NCBI GenBank assembly: GCA_021810905.1 | Contig: JAJZQH010000003.1 | Span: 65,897-129,896 of the forward strand | DNA length: 64,000 bases | Reading direction: 5' to 3' | DNA from: a bacterium | GTDB lineage: Bacteria > UBA10199 > 2-02-FULL-44-16 > JAAZCA01 | Shown here: in pieces, positions 10,306-18,946 of the stretch | Position numbering within the stretch: position 1 is the stretch's first letter | Layout: each line of letters opens with the position of its first letter | Program-made: the position numbers and the translations under genes | The notes under the pieces: model-generated | Seen by the model: the letters and a program-made list of their open reading frames with translations, nothing else | What the model was told of the DNA's origin: nothing | Databases searched by the model: none

Positions 10306-10818
10306 ATGACGAATAAGAAGGTCGTTGAAAAAAGGGCTCGGCTGGATACCCCGGTGGAGAAGTTGGGCAAGAAGGAGACGTTGATGCACTACAACGCGAT
10401 CCTCATTGAAGAGCTGAATGCAAAGATGCAACTCGTCCTTGAGTGCGTAAAGGCATCCCACGAGGAGACGGGCAGGCGTTTTGTGTCCCTGGAGGAGAAA
10501 TTCGAGCAGCGGTTTACCGCGCTGGAGCTCGCCTTGCGTGTACAGAAGGACGATACAGACAGACGCTTTGCGTCTCTTGAAGAAAAATTTGAGCAGCGGT
10601 TTACCGCGCTGGAGCTCGCCTTGCGTGTACAGAAGGACGATACAGACAGACGCTTTGCGAAGTTTGAACAACGATTTGACACGCTGGAACTCGGTTTGCG
10701 CAGCCTCAAGGACGACATGGCGGATATGGAACGCAGGCTCAGTTCGAAGATCAACCGTATCGCCGAGCGGTGCGAGAATCACGAATGCCGGCTTGGCGCC
10801 ATTGAAGCGAGGCAATAA
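10306..10818 (+). CDS. coiled-coil protein with near-identical 29-residue repeats
   Basis: 170 residues, almost entirely helical and highly charged. Heptad-like units RFxSLEEKFEQRFTALELA, each followed by LRVQKDDTDR, occur twice nearly identically and once degenerately between residues ~57 and ~135. The two best units are almost identical in DNA as well. The N-terminus (KKVVEKRARLDTPVEKLGKKETL) is basic. No enzymatic domain or membrane segment is present. It is probably a structural or oligomerising protein. A GNAT acetyltransferase gene follows after 4 bp, so the two are likely co-transcribed. Confidence 0.75.
   Translation: MTNKKVVEKRARLDTPVEKLGKKETLMHYNAILIEELNAKMQLVLECVKASHEETGRRFVSLEEKFEQRFTALELALRVQKDDTDRRFASLEEKFEQRFTALELALRVQKDDTDRRFAKFEQRFDTLELGLRSLKDDMADMERRLSSKINRIAERCENHECRLGAIEARQ
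10487..10662 (+). repeat. tandem 87-bp coding repeat
   Basis: A unit of 87 bp (29 codons) is repeated within the coiled-coil gene. From GAGCAGCGG at 10504 and at 10591 the two copies are identical for about 70 bases. The preceding bases differ mainly at synonymous positions. Confidence 0.8.
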
Positions 10819-12771: not shown

Positions 12772-12876
12772 GCTATCCTTGCTCCTTCGCCACGATTCGA
12801 ACGACCTGTAAATAATACTATATTTATGAATGATTTTCCGGTAGTGAAATCCCCGCATCATCGGGGGAATTTCCGC

Positions 12877-13173
12877 ATGAGAAAATCTTCGTTCTTCCTC
12901 TGTTCCCTCGCGGTTGAGGTCGTGGTGCTGGGCCTGCTCCTCACGCACGCCTCCTTCCACAGAGAGGCCATGCGCGAAGGCATCGAGGAAAAAGCGGCCA
13001 TGGTCCGCTCGCTCGGCCTCACGGATCTCTGCCTCTTCACCGACGCGCGCTACACCCGGAATCTCTCCCAGGCGGATCTCTTTTCAGCGTTCCAGGATAA
13101 TCCATTGTCGCTGGATCACTTTCCGTCCGGTTCGTTCACCACTCCTCCAATATGGATTATGAGACGCAGATGA
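12877..13173 (+). CDS. small membrane-anchored protein opening the NosL/ABC operon
   Basis: 98 residues from the ATG at 12877 (the frame also opens from 12826). One N-terminal membrane segment (FFLCSLAVEVVVLGLLLTH) is followed by a periplasmic domain with SLGLTDLCLFTDARYTRN, LSQADLFSAFQDNPLSL and HFPSGSFTTPP. I recognise this conserved-looking tail only as a small protein of unknown function that fits next to ABC/NosL genes. The possible ribosome-binding bases sit in a small hairpin (CCCCG CATCAT CGGGG). Its TGA overlaps the next ATG (ATGA), so it is the first gene of a coupled operon reaching to 18856. Confidence 0.75.
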   Translation: MRKSSFFLCSLAVEVVVLGLLLTHASFHREAMREGIEEKAAMVRSLGLTDLCLFTDARYTRNLSQADLFSAFQDNPLSLDHFPSGSFTTPPIWIMRRR

Positions 13174-14369
13174 GATCACCGATCGAAAGGCAGCGCGGCA
13201 TCATCGATTTCACCCTCTCCTCGCTGATGCGCAGGAAGGTGAAGAATGTCGGCCTCCTTTGCCTCTATGCGCTCATAGTCTTTATCCTCGCCTCGGCGAT
13301 CTTTTTCACGTCCTCCATAAAAAAAGAGGCTTCGCTGATCCTGCGAGGGACGCCGGAAATCATCGTTCAAAAAATGGCGGCGGGCCGCCACGATCTCTTT
13401 CCGCTGCGCGACATGGAAGCCGTGAAAAATGTCCGCGGCGTGGCCGCGGTCGAAGGCCGGCTGTGGGGATATTATTTTGACGATCGACTCGGCGCCAACT
13501 ACACGCTGATAGTCCCGCCCGCCGCGCGAAGCTCCGCCGAACCTTCCGAAGCGCGGCCGCTCTTCTGGTTCAATGCCGCGGCCCTCGAGCCCGGGACGAT
13601 AGTCATAGGCGAAGGCGTCGCGCGCGTCGGCAAACTTTCCAAAGGCGATTCTATTGCATTTACGGCCTATGACGGCAGCACCATCGACCTCAAGGTCGCG
13701 GATACGCTTTCGTCTAAATCGGAGCTCGTCTCCTCGGATCTCATCCTGATCGGCGAAGAGGATTTCAGAAAGCTCTTCGACATAGGCAAAGATTACGCGA
13801 CAGACATAACCGTCGAGGTCAAAAACCCCCGAGAGATCCCCACGGTGGCTTCGAAAATAACCAGAGTCCTGCCGGATACGCGGCCGATCGTCAGAGACGA
13901 GATACTCAGGACCTACGATTCGATCTTCAACTGGCGGGGCGGGATGATGATCGTGATCCTCTCCGCGGCCATACTCGCGTTCGTCATCTTCGCCTGGGAC
14001 AAGGCCTCGGGCCTGAGCGCAGAGGAACGGCAGGAGATCGGAATCCTCAAGGCGGTCGGATGGGAGACTTCCGACGTCATCCTGATGAAATTCTGGGAAG
14101 GCGCAATCGTCTCGCTTACGGCTTATTTCGCAGGCGTGATCCTGGCGTACGTTCACGTCTTCTTAACGGGTTCGTTGATATTCGAACCCGCACTCAAGGG
14201 CTGGTCGGTGCTATATCCGCATTTTTCCCTGACTCCGTTCATCAGCGCGGAACAGCTGATCACGCTCTTCTTCCTCACCGTGGTACCCTATACGATCGCG
14301 ACCATAGTCCCCACGTGGCGGGCCGCGATCATCGATCCAGATGCAGCGATGAGGCAGACGGGGGAATAA
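13170..14369 (+). CDS. FtsX/LolC-type ABC transporter permease
   Basis: 399 residues from the ATG overlapping the previous stop (an ATG at 13152 in frame is the alternative). The architecture is MacB/FtsX-like: one membrane segment (VGLLCLYALIVFILASAIFF) near residue 30, a ~210-residue periplasmic domain, then three membrane segments in the last 150 residues, with the cytoplasmic coupling segment RQEIGILKAVGWETSDVILMKFWEG. Such permeases extract or scaffold substrates at the periplasmic face rather than import solutes. The adjacent ATPase and NosL genes suggest a role in metal or cofactor handling, which is inference. Confidence 0.85.
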   Translation: MRSPIERQRGIIDFTLSSLMRRKVKNVGLLCLYALIVFILASAIFFTSSIKKEASLILRGTPEIIVQKMAAGRHDLFPLRDMEAVKNVRGVAAVEGRLWGYYFDDRLGANYTLIVPPAARSSAEPSEARPLFWFNAAALEPGTIVIGEGVARVGKLSKGDSIAFTAYDGSTIDLKVADTLSSKSELVSSDLILIGEEDFRKLFDIGKDYATDITVEVKNPREIPTVASKITRVLPDTRPIVRDEILRTYDSIFNWRGGMMIVILSAAILAFVIFAWDKASGLSAEERQEIGILKAVGWETSDVILMKFWEGAIVSLTAYFAGVILAYVHVFLTGSLIFEPALKGWSVLYPHFSLTPFISAEQLITLFFLTVVPYTIATIVPTWRAAIIDPDAAMRQTGE

Positions 14370-14372
14370 CGC

Positions 14373-15053
14373 ATGATCGAGCTCATCAACGTGAAGAAGG
14401 TCTTCAACGCCGGCAGGCCGAGCGAATTCACGGCGCTGGGCGGCATCAGCCTGAATATCGAGGACCGGAAGGTCACGGTCCTCAAAGGACCCAGCGGTTC
14501 GGGCAAGACCACGCTCCTGTGCATCATCGGCTGCATGAGCAGGCCTACGGCGGGCCGCGTGAGGCTCGATGGCCGCGAGATCAGCGGCCTTCCGGAGAGG
14601 TTTCTCACCGACATCAGGAGAAAGGGCTTCGGCTTCATCTTTCAGGTGCCGAATCTCATAAGGGGAATGTCAGTCCTCGAAAACGTCATGCTGCCGGCCT
14701 ACCCCCTGGGGGAGCCGCACGCGCGCCTGAAAGAGAGGGCGATCAGGGGGCTGAACGACTTCCACGTCTCGACCAAGGCGACCTCGAAAGTTGAGTGGCT
14801 TTCCGGAGGCGAGGCGCAGCGCGTCGCCATCGTGAGGGCGCTGATCAATGACCCCGACGTCATTATCGCCGACGAGCCCACGGCGCACCTGGATACGCAT
14901 CTCTCGTACCTCTTCATGGAGATCGTCGAGAATTTCAAAAAGGAAGGCAAGACGGTGATCATCGCGAGCCACGATCCGCTGGTCTGTGAATCCAGGATCG
15001 TCGATAGCGTCATCAATATGCGAGACGGCAGAATAGAGGGCGAATCGTCGTGA
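14373..15053 (+). CDS. LolD/MacB-type ABC transporter ATPase
   Basis: 226 residues. Walker A GPSGSGKTTLL (near 39-49), signature LSGGEAQRVAIVRAL (near 143), Walker B VIIADEPTAHLD (near 165) and the switch histidine in IIASHDP are all present, so it should be active. The length and the QVPNLI-type Q-loop fit the LolD/FtsE group that partners FtsX-like permeases. It begins 3 bp after the permease stop, and its TGA overlaps the GTG start of the next gene. Confidence 0.9.
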   Translation: MIELINVKKVFNAGRPSEFTALGGISLNIEDRKVTVLKGPSGSGKTTLLCIIGCMSRPTAGRVRLDGREISGLPERFLTDIRRKGFGFIFQVPNLIRGMSVLENVMLPAYPLGEPHARLKERAIRGLNDFHVSTKATSKVEWLSGGEAQRVAIVRALINDPDVIIADEPTAHLDTHLSYLFMEIVENFKKEGKTVIIASHDPLVCESRIVDSVINMRDGRIEGESS

Positions 15054-16045
15054 TCCTGCACCCTGAAGTCATCGCCAACCTCCTGGCTTCTTACGCAGCC
15101 ACTTTTATGGTGATTTATGCAACATTCTATGGCGTTCAAATACTCAGGCGCTGGGACATACGCAGCGGCGATGAGTTACAGCTCGCGCTCGAACGGAAGA
15201 CCTACCTGATCTCCACGGTGCTCACCTACGTCTTCGCGCTGCAGCTCTTTTCCATATTCCTCTACGTATTTACGGCCGACGCCCTCTGCCCGCTCTTCGT
15301 AGGGGCGATGTGCGCCGCAGGCACTCTGAACGTCAACGCGTTCGGCTACCCCACCCTCCTGATCAAAATTCTCACGTTTATGCTCGCGGGGCTCTGGCTG
15401 ATTCTGAATCACGCGGACAATCAGGGATACGATTACCCGCTTATCAAAAAAAAATACTCCCTGCTCGCGTTCATCGTCCCATTCATGATCCTGGAGACTA
15501 TCCTCGAGAGCGCCTATTTTCTCGGACTGAAAGCGGACGTGATCACCTCCTGCTGCGGGAGTCTCTTCAGCATCGAACGCGAGGCAGGACTCGGTTTCAT
15601 ACTTGTCTCGCTTCCGGAAAGGGCGATGGCCTGGATCTTCTACGTCTCAATGCTGTGCACGTTGACGTGCGGAATATTCTTTTATCGCAGGGGGAGGGGC
15701 GGATATCTCTACTCCATTCTGAGCGCCATGATGTTCGTGGTCTCGATAATCTCCATCGTCTCGTTCATCTCCCCTTATGTCTACGAACTGCCGACGCATC
15801 ACTGTCCGTTCTGCATCGTCATGCGCGAATATCATTATATCGGCTATTTTCTCTATATGCTCTTGTTCACGGCTGCGGTCTGTGGCATTGGAACGGGTGC
15901 GCTCCTCCCCTTCCGAGGGGTGCAGAGTCTCACGCCCGCGCTGGGCATATTCATCAGGAGGCTCGCGATCGCATCGACGGGCTCTTACGCGGCGTTCACC
16001 GCGATCGTAACTTGCGAAATCGCCTCTTCGAATCTCATGATGTGA
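15050..16045 (+). CDS. polytopic membrane protein with CC and CPFC cysteine motifs
   Basis: 331 residues from the GTG overlapping the ATPase stop. About eight hydrophobic segments are visible. Two cysteine sites stand out: TSCCGSLFS near residue 165 and HHCPFCIVMREYHYIGY near 258-274, which sit at predicted membrane or loop borders. Adjacent His and Cys residues suggest metal binding or thiol exchange. I do not recognise a named family. Its position between an ABC transporter and a NosL-thioredoxin protein makes a role in copper or another thiophilic metal, or in redox delivery, plausible but unproven. Confidence 0.75.
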   Translation: MILHPEVIANLLASYAATFMVIYATFYGVQILRRWDIRSGDELQLALERKTYLISTVLTYVFALQLFSIFLYVFTADALCPLFVGAMCAAGTLNVNAFGYPTLLIKILTFMLAGLWLILNHADNQGYDYPLIKKKYSLLAFIVPFMILETILESAYFLGLKADVITSCCGSLFSIEREAGLGFILVSLPERAMAWIFYVSMLCTLTCGIFFYRRGRGGYLYSILSAMMFVVSIISIVSFISPYVYELPTHHCPFCIVMREYHYIGYFLYMLLFTAAVCGIGTGALLPFRGVQSLTPALGIFIRRLAIASTGSYAAFTAIVTCEIASSNLMM

Positions 16046-16962
16046 TGATGCGAGCAAAGACCTACATCGGAGCAGCGCTGGTGCTGGCCCTGGTCCTCTT
16101 CATTTTCAGGGCCAAACCCGCATTGGGCCAGGAACCGTCGGTCGCCATCAAGAAAAGCGACCGCTGTCCCGTTTGCGGCATGTTCGTATACAAATATCCA
16201 AAGTGGGTGGCGCTCGCGGTCTTCGGTGACGGAGAATATTTTTTCTACGACGGCGCCAAGGACCTGTTCAAACATTATTTCAACGTCCAGAAATTTTCTC
16301 CCGGAAAGAACCCGGAAGGGATCCGAGAGATCTTCGTTACTGACTATTACGAGGTGAAGCTGATAGAAGCGAAGTCTGCTTACTACGTCATCGATTCGAA
16401 CGTGCTTGGCCCGATGGGCCACGAACTGCTGCCGTTCAAGGACCGCGAATCCGCTCAGGAGTTTCTGGAGGATCACAAGGGTAGATCCATCCTTCGATTC
16501 GATGAGGTAACTCCGGAGGTCATCGCATCACTCGATCGACGGACCGAAAAACCGGTTCCTTCCGTAACGCTCACAGATTTCAACGGAAAGAACGTGCAGC
16601 TCTCGGAGCTCATCGGCGGCAGGGTGGCGCTTCTGCACTTCTGGGACATCAAATGCCCTCACTGCAATACGGACGCGCTCGTTTCGATCGACGGCCTTTA
16701 TCAGAGATACAGGGACAAGGGTTTCGTGACGGTGGCCATCCAGGAGACGAGGCCGGAAAAGGGTGATGCGGGAATCCGGAAATACGATGGCGTGACCTAC
16801 CCCATGCTCATCGACGCGTCTGGAAAAACGGCCAGGCGATTCGGCGTCATCGCCATGCCCACGACGCTTTTGGTGGACGAAAAAGGCGTCGTACGAAAAA
16901 CGATCGAAGGCGATTCCGGAATCGATGCGTTGGAAAAGCTGTTAACGAAGCTGTTGAAATAA
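16045..16962 (+). CDS. secreted NosL-domain/TlpA-like thioredoxin fusion
   Basis: 305 residues from the ATG in the TGATG overlap with the previous stop. A signal peptide (IGAALVLALVLFIF...ALG) leads to a NosL-like domain with CPVCGM near residue 38 and FFYDGAKDLFKHYF, as in the copper-binding NosL accessory proteins of nitrous oxide reductase. A linker is followed by a TlpA/ResA-like thioredoxin domain with the active site FWDIKCPHCNTDA near 205 and the cis-Pro loop IAMPTTLLVDEKG near 273. No nosZ gene is in the window. The fusion suggests coupled metal binding and disulfide reduction in the periplasm (inference). Confidence 0.85.
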   Translation: MMRAKTYIGAALVLALVLFIFRAKPALGQEPSVAIKKSDRCPVCGMFVYKYPKWVALAVFGDGEYFFYDGAKDLFKHYFNVQKFSPGKNPEGIREIFVTDYYEVKLIEAKSAYYVIDSNVLGPMGHELLPFKDRESAQEFLEDHKGRSILRFDEVTPEVIASLDRRTEKPVPSVTLTDFNGKNVQLSELIGGRVALLHFWDIKCPHCNTDALVSIDGLYQRYRDKGFVTVAIQETRPEKGDAGIRKYDGVTYPMLIDASGKTARRFGVIAMPTTLLVDEKGVVRKTIEGDSGIDALEKLLTKLLK

Positions 16963-16971
16963 GGGGGTAAC

Positions 16972-18408
16972 ATGACGGCATTCGCCAGATTATGGTCAGC
17001 GATGACGATCTGTCTCCTGCTGCTTCCCTCTTCCGCTGCCCTTGCCGATGAGGGGCATAAGCGCGAGAGCTGCAGGGTATGCGGCATGTATATCGACCAG
17101 TATGAAAAGACCTCGGCCGAGCTCGTTTTCAAGGAAGACAAACATGGCGGCAGGAAGGAATACACCTGCGGCGTGGCCTGCATGCTGCGCGAGGTCGAGG
17201 AAGCGGGAGGCGTATCCTCGTTCAGCTCCGTGAAGGTCCACGACTGGATATCAGGAGAACTCGTAGACGCACAGAGCGCGACCTATGTCGTCGGCAGCAA
17301 GGTGATTCCGGACATGATTCCTAACTACATCGCCTTTTCAAGCAGGGAGGAGGCGAAGGCCTTCGCGGCAAGACAAGGCGGAGAGCTGATGACCTTCGAT
17401 GCGGCGATGGCGGATATTTCGCCTGTCGGAACCACCGCGCCCTTCCGCATACGCACGGCGGTAACGCCTGGCAGTGGCAATTTCAGCGCAGGCGCGGTTT
17501 ACGGCTATGTCTTCAAAAACGAACTCAGAGTCGGTCCCGATCACATGGATCCGGGACAATTCATCAACAGTAACCCTGCGCAACCGAAGGCCCCGAATGA
17601 AGCGAGGACTCAGCAGGCCGCTCTCTTCTTCAATTACTCCCCCACGGATCGCATCTCGCTATTTCTGAACGCGCCCTGGCTCTGGAGGATGAGTGACATA
17701 TTCGTTCGAGATCCAGCCACGGGACAGGTCAATGGCAAGTCAGAGAGCAGCAACGGCGTCGGAGATATCGCCATCGAAGGACGATATAACTTCTGGCACA
17801 GCACGCGTTTCGACAAGTTCGCAACCATCCTGATCGGAACGAGCATTCCCTCCGGCGACTTCGACGGGGCGAGGACGCTCGACCCGATCAGCGGCAGGCA
17901 ACTCGTCGTTAAATCTCCTGCACTGCAGATTGGCAAAGGTGTCCCTGCCTTCAGGGGAGGACTGCTCTACTCGCAGCGATGGAAGAAATTCTGGCTCCAC
18001 GGCTCGGTTACCTACGACGTGAATCCTGAAAATTTTGACGACTTTGCGTTCGGCAATATCGGCACGCTCGGCATGGCCTTGCACTACACGCCGACCTATG
18101 ACCTCATGCTCGGAGTAGAGATGGACGGCAGTTATACATGGGAAAATACGGACAGCGGCTTCGATATCCGCAACAGCGGAGGCGTCACTTCAAATGCCGC
18201 ACTCGTCTTCGATTACAGGTTCCTCAATGCCTTAGGAGGAAATTTCAAATTGCGCGGAGCGATCGGACTGCCGGTATATGAAGACCTGAACTACGGCAAC
18301 GTGACCAATCCGAAATCCGGCATGCCGTTCCAGCAGGTGCAGCTCGGCGGCGGCTTCTTCGCGAACCTGGGTTTACAGTGGACGATCCGTTTCGCTCCAA
18401 AATACTAG
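16972..18408 (+). CDS. NosL-domain protein fused to outer-membrane beta-barrel
   Basis: 478 residues; GGGGG lies 5-6 bases before the ATG. After a signal peptide (cleavage near ALADEG), residues ~27-150 form a second NosL-like domain (CRVCGMYIDQYEKTSAEL, then CGVACMLREVEEAGG). The remaining ~320 residues look like a 'transporter' beta-barrel of the phenol-degradation meta-pathway type (alternating strands, GVGDIAIEGRYNFW, IPSGDFDG), ending in an aromatic PKY terminus. A metal-binding domain at the mouth of an outer-membrane barrel is unusual. Last but one gene of the operon. Confidence 0.82.
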   Translation: MTAFARLWSAMTICLLLLPSSAALADEGHKRESCRVCGMYIDQYEKTSAELVFKEDKHGGRKEYTCGVACMLREVEEAGGVSSFSSVKVHDWISGELVDAQSATYVVGSKVIPDMIPNYIAFSSREEAKAFAARQGGELMTFDAAMADISPVGTTAPFRIRTAVTPGSGNFSAGAVYGYVFKNELRVGPDHMDPGQFINSNPAQPKAPNEARTQQAALFFNYSPTDRISLFLNAPWLWRMSDIFVRDPATGQVNGKSESSNGVGDIAIEGRYNFWHSTRFDKFATILIGTSIPSGDFDGARTLDPISGRQLVVKSPALQIGKGVPAFRGGLLYSQRWKKFWLHGSVTYDVNPENFDDFAFGNIGTLGMALHYTPTYDLMLGVEMDGSYTWENTDSGFDIRNSGGVTSNAALVFDYRFLNALGGNFKLRGAIGLPVYEDLNYGNVTNPKSGMPFQQVQLGGGFFANLGLQWTIRFAPKY

Positions 18409-18514: not shown

Positions 18515-18856
18515 ATGAAGAAGATCGGAAAATGGGGTCTGGTCGGAGTGATGTTCCTCGCGCTGGCGTTTGCTATGTCGTCGATGACCGCTTCGGCCGC
18601 GGGCAAGGAAGAAAAAGGATCTGCAAAGACGCTGAAGATTGAGAAGCTCGTCCCAATCGTAAATCCGACGTGCCCCATCATGGGCACGGCCATGGATAAG
18701 ACCGCTCCGGAAAACATGACGCGCATGTACAACGGACAGAGGATCGGCTTCTGCTGCGGAGAATGCCTGACGAAATGGGACGCGATGAGCGATAAGGAAA
18801 AAGACGTTGCATTAAAAAATGCGATGAAGCCTGCCAGGACAAAGCCTGCCAAATAG
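18515..18856 (+). CDS. small secreted Cys-rich, YHS-like protein
   Basis: 113 residues from the ATG at 18515 (AAGGGG upstream). A signal peptide ends near TASAAG. The mature part has a compact motif: VNPTCPIMGTAMD, then a short spacer and GQRIGFCCGECLTKW, four Cys with Met and His-poor surroundings, reminiscent of YHS/heavy-metal-binding domains. The Lys/Ala-rich tail is probably flexible. It follows the NosL-barrel gene in the same direction and precedes a strong terminator. A periplasmic metal carrier is the likeliest role. Confidence 0.75.
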   Translation: MKKIGKWGLVGVMFLALAFAMSSMTASAAGKEEKGSAKTLKIEKLVPIVNPTCPIMGTAMDKTAPENMTRMYNGQRIGFCCGECLTKWDAMSDKEKDVALKNAMKPARTKPAK

Positions 18857-18905
18857 CAGCATCGATCTGAACAGCTGCGGTTTCTGTAAATTTTTTATTC
18901 GACCG

Positions 18906-18946
18906 GCGGCGTGCGATAGCGATATCGCACGCCGCTGAATTTTTTC
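18906..18946 (+). terminator. Rho-independent terminator of the NosL/ABC operon
   Basis: Perfect 13-bp stem (GCGGCGTGCGATA at 18906-18918 with its complement at 18923-18935), loop GCGA, followed by a run of six T. It separates the plus-strand operon from the convergent transsulfuration genes. Confidence 0.85.

Follow-up and report, generated by a model that had tools for sequence, protein, structure and literature searches.

A NosL domain joined to an outer-membrane barrel: a candidate for copper handling at the outer membrane within a conserved gene run

Introduction

What would a bacterium gain by building a NosL domain and an outer-membrane barrel into one protein? The question is posed by a gene in the window, by which we mean the whole stretch of 64,000 nucleotides analysed here (contig JAJZQH010000003.1 of assembly GCA_021810905.1, lineage UBA10199). 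It bears on a step that is poorly known, the passage of copper across the outer membrane. TonB dependence is stated for the few outer-membrane transporters that are specific for copper (PMC12914433). NosL of P. denitrificans, which serves the CuZ centre, has attomolar affinity for the one Cu(I) that it binds (PMC6530538), and the COG4313 barrels are described as a family with only two members characterised in some detail (PMC4493636).

The fusion protein

The gene, at 16972-18408 (+), runs in a single frame from ATG to stop with no internal stop and encodes 478 amino acids, identified as a NosL-barrel fusion by reading frame, Pfam, structure model and alignment. Residues 1-25 (16972-17046, +) probably form a signal peptide, as judged from the sequence and from a helix at residues 2-25 of the model; this stretch lacks a lipobox cysteine, and by the same reading no lipobox precedes C34. 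The NosL domain follows (residues 30-148; 17059-17415, +), with a match to PF05573 over residues 30-144 (68.6 bits against a cut-off of 24, E 8.9e-19) and sequence matches to the solved NosL of the NosDFYL complex (7osf, E 1.4e-5) and to 7og7 (E 9.7e-4). It carries the motifs CRVCGM (residues 34-39; 17071-17088, +) and CGVACM (residues 66-71; 17167-17184, +). A pattern drawn from the two motifs matches the window once and none of 100 shuffles, which speaks only for the rarity of the pattern, derived as it was from the fusion gene itself. A conserved linker and presumed barrel plug, recognised by alignment and including SPxGxTxPFR (residues 149-169; 17416-17478, +), leads into a barrel of the COG4313/FapF type, assigned by structure match (residues 170-478; 17479-18405, +). 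Phenol_MetA_deg (PF13557), the Pfam name for the COG4313 channel type, matches residues 245-395 with 21.2 bits against a cut-off of 22; the same model exceeds its cut-off in four of five scored relatives of this family and in both proteins of the second family described below. A scan of the window with Rfam gave zero matches at the gathering score.

An AlphaFold2 model built on 13 aligned rows contains both folds in one chain (mean pLDDT 81.7, pTM 0.77). Aligned with VIA-align, residues 29-149 match Shewanella NosL (7og7; Z 15.2, 2.4 A, 118 residues aligned, 26% identity), and a second NosL structure, 7osg, is matched with Z 13.6. Residues 159-472 match Pput2725 (4rl8; Z 26.0, 2.1 A, 254 of 267 residues aligned), and residues 150-472 match FapF (5o65; Z 25.0, 2.8 A, 261 aligned); the top Foldseek matches are the 4rl8 and FapF barrels too. 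The modelled barrel has 12 strands when 253-263 and 266-276 are counted as one kinked strand, and strand 5 is followed by a PTG motif (PTG in 23 of 25 fusions, PSG in two). The linker coincides with the N-terminal segments of 4rl8 and FapF, whose alignments begin at 159 and 150.

With such a fold the barrel would be expected to insert in the outer membrane. An even strand number in an outer-membrane barrel puts the N-terminus on the periplasmic side, so the NosL domain would lie in the periplasm. The first-pass annotation had read a signal peptide, a NosL-like domain with both cysteine motifs and a 'transporter'-type barrel in one unbroken frame, and all of this stands, the signal peptide as a probable one, with a barrel of about 309 residues and both folds recovered in one predicted chain.

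Conserved residues

Are the residues that could hold a metal kept? Twenty-five full-length fusions were aligned, including that of the window and excluding broken, contig-cut or truncated copies (L018/L045, L107, L011, L020/L044, L046, L047, L048 and L062). C34, C37, G38, M39, C66 and M115 are invariant in all 25, and the C70 position is cysteine in 24. The CXXCXM motif of the NosL family, as C34-C37-M39, and a further conserved methionine, M115, are therefore present in every row (for the definition of the CXM and CXXCXM motifs see PMC6530538). The genome-scan pattern required CxxCGM and CxxCM, so rows obtained through it give a biased picture of how well those residues are conserved: seven of the 24 relatives were found by it directly (L025, L021, L023, L016, L017, L022, L015) and three through their genomes (L036, L097, L099), while the remaining 14 came from a profile that lacked the motif pattern and was built from the pattern-found rows and the window. 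Taken with what is known of the family, this conservation leads us to infer that the fused NosL domain binds Cu(I).

The barrel differs in its make-up. Its sequence is free of cysteine in 24 of the 25 fusions and has no methionine conserved in at least 24 of them, so that no metal path through the barrel is visible. D226, D265, R271, H343, H371, E383, D385 and R473 are kept in 25 of 25. Mean top-residue frequency is 0.804 in the linker (149-169), 0.703 in the NosL part and 0.631 in the barrel. Stretches of the linker's length score as high or higher at 20 of 433 positions, or at 30 of 433 when 10 representatives below 65% identity are used; the linker is thus among the most conserved stretches, yet not the top one.

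The first-pass annotation had gone on to suggest a direct handover of metal to or from the outer membrane at the periplasmic mouth of the barrel. The ligand residues are conserved, and barrel topology would place the NosL domain on the periplasmic side; the handover itself, its direction and copper as the metal stay proposals, taken up below.

Distribution, descent and a second fusion

The 25 fusions come from the order of Methylocaldum and from metagenome-assembled genomes titled Deltaproteobacteria, Desulfobacteraceae and Nitrospirae, among others. By the order of Methylocaldum we mean the order of the genome of Methylocaldum sp. 14B (G056, L025); one locus (L021) is placed there by title only. 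A pattern scan of one genome per species (84,980 species) gave 18 loci, 13 of which encode the fusion or a part of it (L011, L013, L015-L018, L020-L026); two hold plain NosL (L012, L028) and three are chance-like (L014, L019, L027). By profile search, an intact single-frame fusion occurs in 15 of 201 genomes sampled from the order of Methylocaldum, and five more genomes have pieces or broken copies (G050, G051 contig-cut, G109, G136, G158); so patchy a distribution implies that the fusion is no general need of this order. The same kind of search gave full-length fusions in the phylum of G049 (three of 395 genomes) and in that of G047 (two of eight); the G047 phylum also contains a pair of fusions of another type and a single copy whose frame is broken. 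Among 46 genomes of the window's own phylum the fusion is present in its own genome only, and a single-protein query of the order and phylum returned that genome and one weak barrel. Viral contigs scanned with the protein and with the pattern gave no relatives, and a plasmid search with the fusion protein gave no fusion and three weak records. That the fusion is restricted to the window genome was ruled out by the relatives in several lineages.

Several genomes hold copies that are frame-broken (L018/L045, at L018:7054-7999, and L107:1444-2887) or reduced to the C-terminal barrel (L046, L047, L048, L062). Because such copies exist, the gene seems also to have been lost at times.

Related parts turn up in other arrangements. 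Three long frames from the order of Methylocaldum have a COG4313-like barrel past residue 500 (L054:1-2478, L055:1156-3627, L058:1-2340); in L054, the one of the three that was scanned, DUF3570 precedes the barrel stretch, and the DUF3570 family includes flavinylated members (PMC8238504). Two open frames of about 420 residues end in a NosL domain (L063:652-1938, L064:1-1233), and the N-terminal part of the first has no Pfam match.

In a tree of the 25 fusions, the window sequence is sister to a set of 14 that come from the order of Methylocaldum or bear the title Methylovulum (support 99/97), and two others from that order branch outside the group. This position, together with the finding of no relative in the window's own phylum, suggests from sequence comparison that the window fusion was acquired by transfer from a lineage of the Methylocaldum order or one near it. 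The GC content of the gene run (0.558) is not exceptional for this DNA, where 6-kb windows span 0.446-0.576, and composition therefore neither supports nor refutes a recent transfer.

Did the coupling arise only once? A second fusion (L108:1351-2901, +, and L109:1261-2901, -) combines a different NosL type with a different PF13557 barrel. In the NosL-domain tree the fused domains of the first family cluster, the one solo row among them being the frame-broken L018; with the divergent L061 included, this group has low support (SH-aLRT 52 in a quick tree), and the NosL trees, built from few columns, include long branches. Constraining both fused sets to one clade was rejected (p-AU 0.0058; 29 vs 55 rows, few columns), in a tree with unsettled bootstrap from which the rows L061 and L096:4877 were omitted and in which the fusion copy of L061 in L096 was kept. 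Since the single clade is rejected, the NosL-barrel fusion seems, on these sequences, to have arisen at least twice, and a second, separately placed fusion suggests that the coupling is useful.

The second-type proteins have a His/Met-rich stretch (HTHH, MTMEMHM) after the NosL domain, and a solo NosL adjoins them. Solo relatives of their barrel occur on plasmids (eight matches), and the three of these regions that were inspected show no evident tie to copper: the surroundings are DsbD and cytochrome c maturation genes in Ruegeria, FeoB in Methylosinus, and neither in Methylocystis.

The gene run

The fusion gene lies in a run of genes on one strand. Ahead of the run is a promoter-like site (12787-12816, +) with nine of 12 consensus matches, a weak one, with four such sites in the region against 3.7 expected. 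The first gene (12826-13173, +) encodes a small protein of 115 residues with one hydrophobic stretch near its N-terminus, by sequence reading; it has no Pfam match, and its homologues stand at the same place, the head of the run, in relatives. An FtsX/LolC-type ABC permease follows (13152-14369, +; Pfam FtsX E 7.3e-8, TIGR02212 lolCE E 6.1e-15, below cut-off), and then an ABC ATPase of the LolD/FtsE/MacB type (14373-15053, +; ABC_tran E 9.2e-29, LolD model E 1.2e-49, below cut-off).

The fourth gene (15050-16045, +) encodes a polytopic membrane protein of 331 residues that is linked to NosL genes in several lineages. An alignment of eight shows C88, C168, C169 and HCPFC (C252, C255) invariant, that is, invariant CCG and HCPFC motifs. 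It has no Pfam match at E <0.1, no PDB sequence at E <=1 and no notable NCBIfam match, and its AlphaFold model, built on six rows, is too poor for use (pLDDT 48). It is followed by a fusion of NosL with a TlpA/ResA-like thioredoxin bearing CPHC (16045-16962, +; NosL E 4.8e-32, AhpC-TSA E 3.2e-19, ResA E 4e-19, below cut-off). After the NosL-barrel gene, the last gene before the hairpin (18515-18856, +) encodes a YHS/TRASH-like protein that is small and probably secreted and has the motifs CPIMG and FCCGEC, for which Pfam YHS gives E 0.1 only and which has no match at E 1e-5 in 21 related loci. The terminator-like hairpin (18904-18937, +), 15 pairs and then a T run, has the longest stem among the region's sites, which number 13 against 6.2 in shuffles.

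Two neighbouring genes upstream deserve mention. Directly 5' of the run lies a putative phage metallopeptidase (12349-12771; PF18894, E 1.3e-19), and at 10306-10818 a coiled-coil-like protein has the internal repeat EEKFEQRFTALELALRVQKDDTDRRFA twice, spotted by eye.

The same order recurs elsewhere. Of 13 methanotroph-group loci searched by tblastn, 12 carry, on one strand, the small protein, permease, ATPase, membrane protein, NosL, thioredoxin and fusion (L089-L093, L101-L104, L020, L021 and L024; L020 and L024 end within the fusion gene). In the remaining locus, L018, there are NosL, thioredoxin and the broken fusion, with no ABC match upstream. NosL and thioredoxin are two genes in the relatives' runs and one gene here, so that the window holds a second, local fusion. 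Among eight other loci, three (L096, L097, L098) share the permease, the ATPase and the membrane protein, and in L098 the contig ends within the membrane-protein gene; two (L094, L016) have at least two extra NosL genes each; and three (L095, L099, L100), or three of all 21 loci, have no partner genes by tblastn. Neighbour clusters whose scanned members are DsbD_2, DsbD and an HMA P-type ATPase lie near nine, seven and six of 17 loci, respectively.

In L096 (G303) the fusion set stands beside an N2O-reductase propeller protein (nosZ), NosD, an ABC ATPase, NosL and an ABC-2 permease; after these nos genes come a thioredoxin, a NosL-cytochrome c protein, NosL and the fusion. The NosL-cytochrome c protein (L096:7658-8407, +; Cytochrome_CBB3) is a further NosL fusion, two genes upstream of the NosL-barrel gene.

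Metal and target

Which metal does the fused domain hold, and for which enzyme? Copper is the likely metal, given the NosL family and the gene context of the relatives. The 25 fusion-carrying genomes include 14 with pMMO/AMO, 22 with a haem-copper oxidase over cut-off and one with N2O reductase; the last count comes from one propeller model, and since the pMMO and NosZ models matched none of 14 control genomes, absences are to be taken as absences by these models. The window genome (99.5% complete) has no match to the pMMO, NosZ, COX1 or Cu-oxidase_3 models. A general tie to N2O reductase was rejected, with NosZ in one of 25 genomes, and so was methane monooxygenase as the sole target, with 14 of 25 genomes and none in that of the window.

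Proposed mechanism and alternatives

How would a NosL domain and a barrel work together? Our best reading is a copper acquisition or delivery system in which an outer-membrane channel bears its own chaperone. The simplest mechanism is that copper is caught at the inner mouth of the channel, which is perhaps metal-gated, and is then passed to the soluble NosL and the ABC complex. The C-terminal barrel would insert in the outer membrane, and the NosL domain, in the periplasm, would hold Cu(I) through C34/C37/M39, C66 (and C70) and M115. Metal occupancy might open or close the channel through the linker, an idea that comes from the position of the linker, in the alignments, at the presumed plug region: in the solved COG4313 channel about 14 N-terminal residues fold into the lumen (PMC4493636), and the N-terminal periplasmic part of FapF is thought to control a helical plug (PMC5557850). 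The TlpA-like thioredoxin could keep the cysteines reduced, the metal could be handed to a separate NosL, and the LolD/FtsX-type ABC complex might power the loading or release step, a role modelled on that of the ABC transporter in the N2O-reductase pathway. Import is preferred over export because a channel backed by a very tight periplasmic binder would behave as a sink.

The folds, the invariant residues, the in-frame fusions in several lineages, the second fusion placed apart in the NosL tree, the co-linear run, the neighbouring DsbD_2, DsbD and HMA P-type ATPase clusters, the nosZ neighbourhood in G303, the copper enzymes of the host genomes and the Cu(I) affinity of P. denitrificans NosL all favour the copper-channel reading. 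Counting against it are the lack of a cuproenzyme match in the window genome, the partnerless loci (three of 21), the patchiness (15 of 201), the single NosZ among 25 genomes, a barrel with no visible path for metal and a linker that ranks below other stretches in conservation. A further point against comes from the solved COG4313 member, which was considered an improbable route for hydrophilic molecules (PMC4493636). On balance, that a COG4313/FapF-fold channel with a periplasmic Cu(I)-binding NosL works with the gene run in copper traffic between the outer membrane and copper handlers of the periplasm seems to us about evenly poised between right and wrong. The fuller version is decidedly more tentative and may well fail in one part or another: a non-TonB copper port in which Cu-NosL shifts the plug and opens a 12-stranded channel, and Cu(I) caught inside passes through NosL, thioredoxin and the FtsX-ABC complex to cuproenzymes, of which methane monooxygenase would be one wherever a methanotroph has pMMO.

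The rival that survives best, though we think it rather improbable, is that the barrel merely stands in for the lipid anchor of classical NosL, keeping the chaperone at the outer membrane's inner face, and that the channel is closed or serves an unrelated cargo. Canonical NosL, by prediction, is a lipoprotein of the outer membrane (PMC6530538) and the fusion reads as lacking a lipobox, and in the solved COG4313 channel the N-terminus nearly occludes the lumen (PMC4493636). Against this, a barrel would be a costly anchor, charged and histidine residues of the barrel (the eight listed above) are conserved in 25 of 25 fusions, and a different barrel was apparently recruited separately in L108 and L109.

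Export or detoxification, with NosL collecting periplasmic Cu(I) or another soft metal and the barrel releasing it outward, is unlikely. It would accord with a window genome that matched none of four cuproenzyme models, with an HMA P-type ATPase cluster (one member scanned) near six of 17 loci, and with a distant solo barrel (23% identity over 54% of the query) that sits amid metal-resistance genes on a Manganitrophus plasmid. Yet the scanned proteins of the run include no RND/Cus-type or other energised partner from periplasm to outside, the ABC complex is of the LolD/FtsX type, and the neighbours resemble assembly factors (NosL, thioredoxin, and the nos cluster in G303). Ranked behind export, and unlikely too, is passage of an organic copper ligand or other amphipathic molecule through the channel, with the NosL domain stripping or loading the metal. 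COG4313 members have been tied to the uptake of hydrophobic or amphipathic molecules (PMC4493636), but no gene for biosynthesis of a ligand was recognised among the scanned neighbours, which make up part of the neighbourhood.

An artefact, either a fusion made by chance or a frameshift or a C-terminal part that is no barrel, can practically be dismissed: some relatives are broken (L018/L045, L107) and the window copy is not, 24 further fusions are open in one frame, contrary to the separate-gene relatives that the first-pass annotation had named as a refutation, and the model and fold match argue for a barrel.

Comparison with known systems

Both NosL and the barrel belong to known families; within the open-licence literature, where no description of a NosL-barrel fusion was found, the combination and its conserved run appear unreported, in line with the first impression that the fusion was undescribed. 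The recurrence of the fusion within a conserved gene cluster, in some methane oxidisers and in other bacteria, points to a so far undescribed route of copper handling at the outer membrane. Some methanotrophs rely on copper to oxidise methane, and a channel that brings its own copper chaperone, set in a fixed gene run of theirs, would be a directly testable candidate; if the copper-channel reading is true, it would supply an outer-membrane part for the NosL pathway and a function for part of the COG4313 family.

The likeness to NosL (PF05573) lies in a Pfam score over cut-off and in the fold matches to 7og7 and 7osg, and CXXCXM is common to the fusion and clade II NosL (PMC6530538). Unlike the canonical NosL of N2O reductase assembly, the fusion has no lipobox, is joined to a barrel and has the extra C66/C70 pair, and NosZ is matched in only one of the 25 fusion genomes and not in that of the window. 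The run shares an ABC transporter with NosDFYL, but that of the window is of the FtsX/LolD type and that of NosDFYL of the ABC-2 type; NosD and the ABC-2 type NosY are absent from the window run and present beside the fusion in G303.

With the COG4313 (Phenol_MetA_deg) channel Pput2725 (4rl8) the fusion shares a 12-stranded barrel and a segment before strand 1 at what would be the plug position; it differs from such channels in the large metal-binding domain in front, and its PF13557 score falls just short of the cut-off (21.2 bits vs 22). FapF (5o65) has the same barrel (Z 25.0), and in FapF, too, one of two PTG motifs comes after strand 5 (PMC5557850); FapF has a coiled coil where the fusion has NosL, and the scanned proteins of the run include no amyloid genes.

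Copper acquisition at the outer membrane is known from OprC/NosA and CrtA, and NosA was once linked to N2O reductase (PMC8610252, PMC12914433). These are 22-stranded TonB-dependent barrels with a plug domain, whereas the barrel of the fusion has 12 strands in about 309 residues, and no TonB-dependent receptor domain was found by Pfam in the scanned run proteins. In gene content the run resembles the Fet system (FetMP-FetABCDEF) of Campylobacter jejuni, which has an 8-TM CxxC protein, ABC permeases with an ATPase, and thioredoxins (PMC10783030). The FTR1-type permease FetM and P19/FetP are absent from the seven scanned run proteins, and NosL and an outer-membrane channel stand in their place. 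The outer-membrane step of the Fet system is stated in that paper to be unidentified (PMC10783030); the window run includes an outer-membrane channel.
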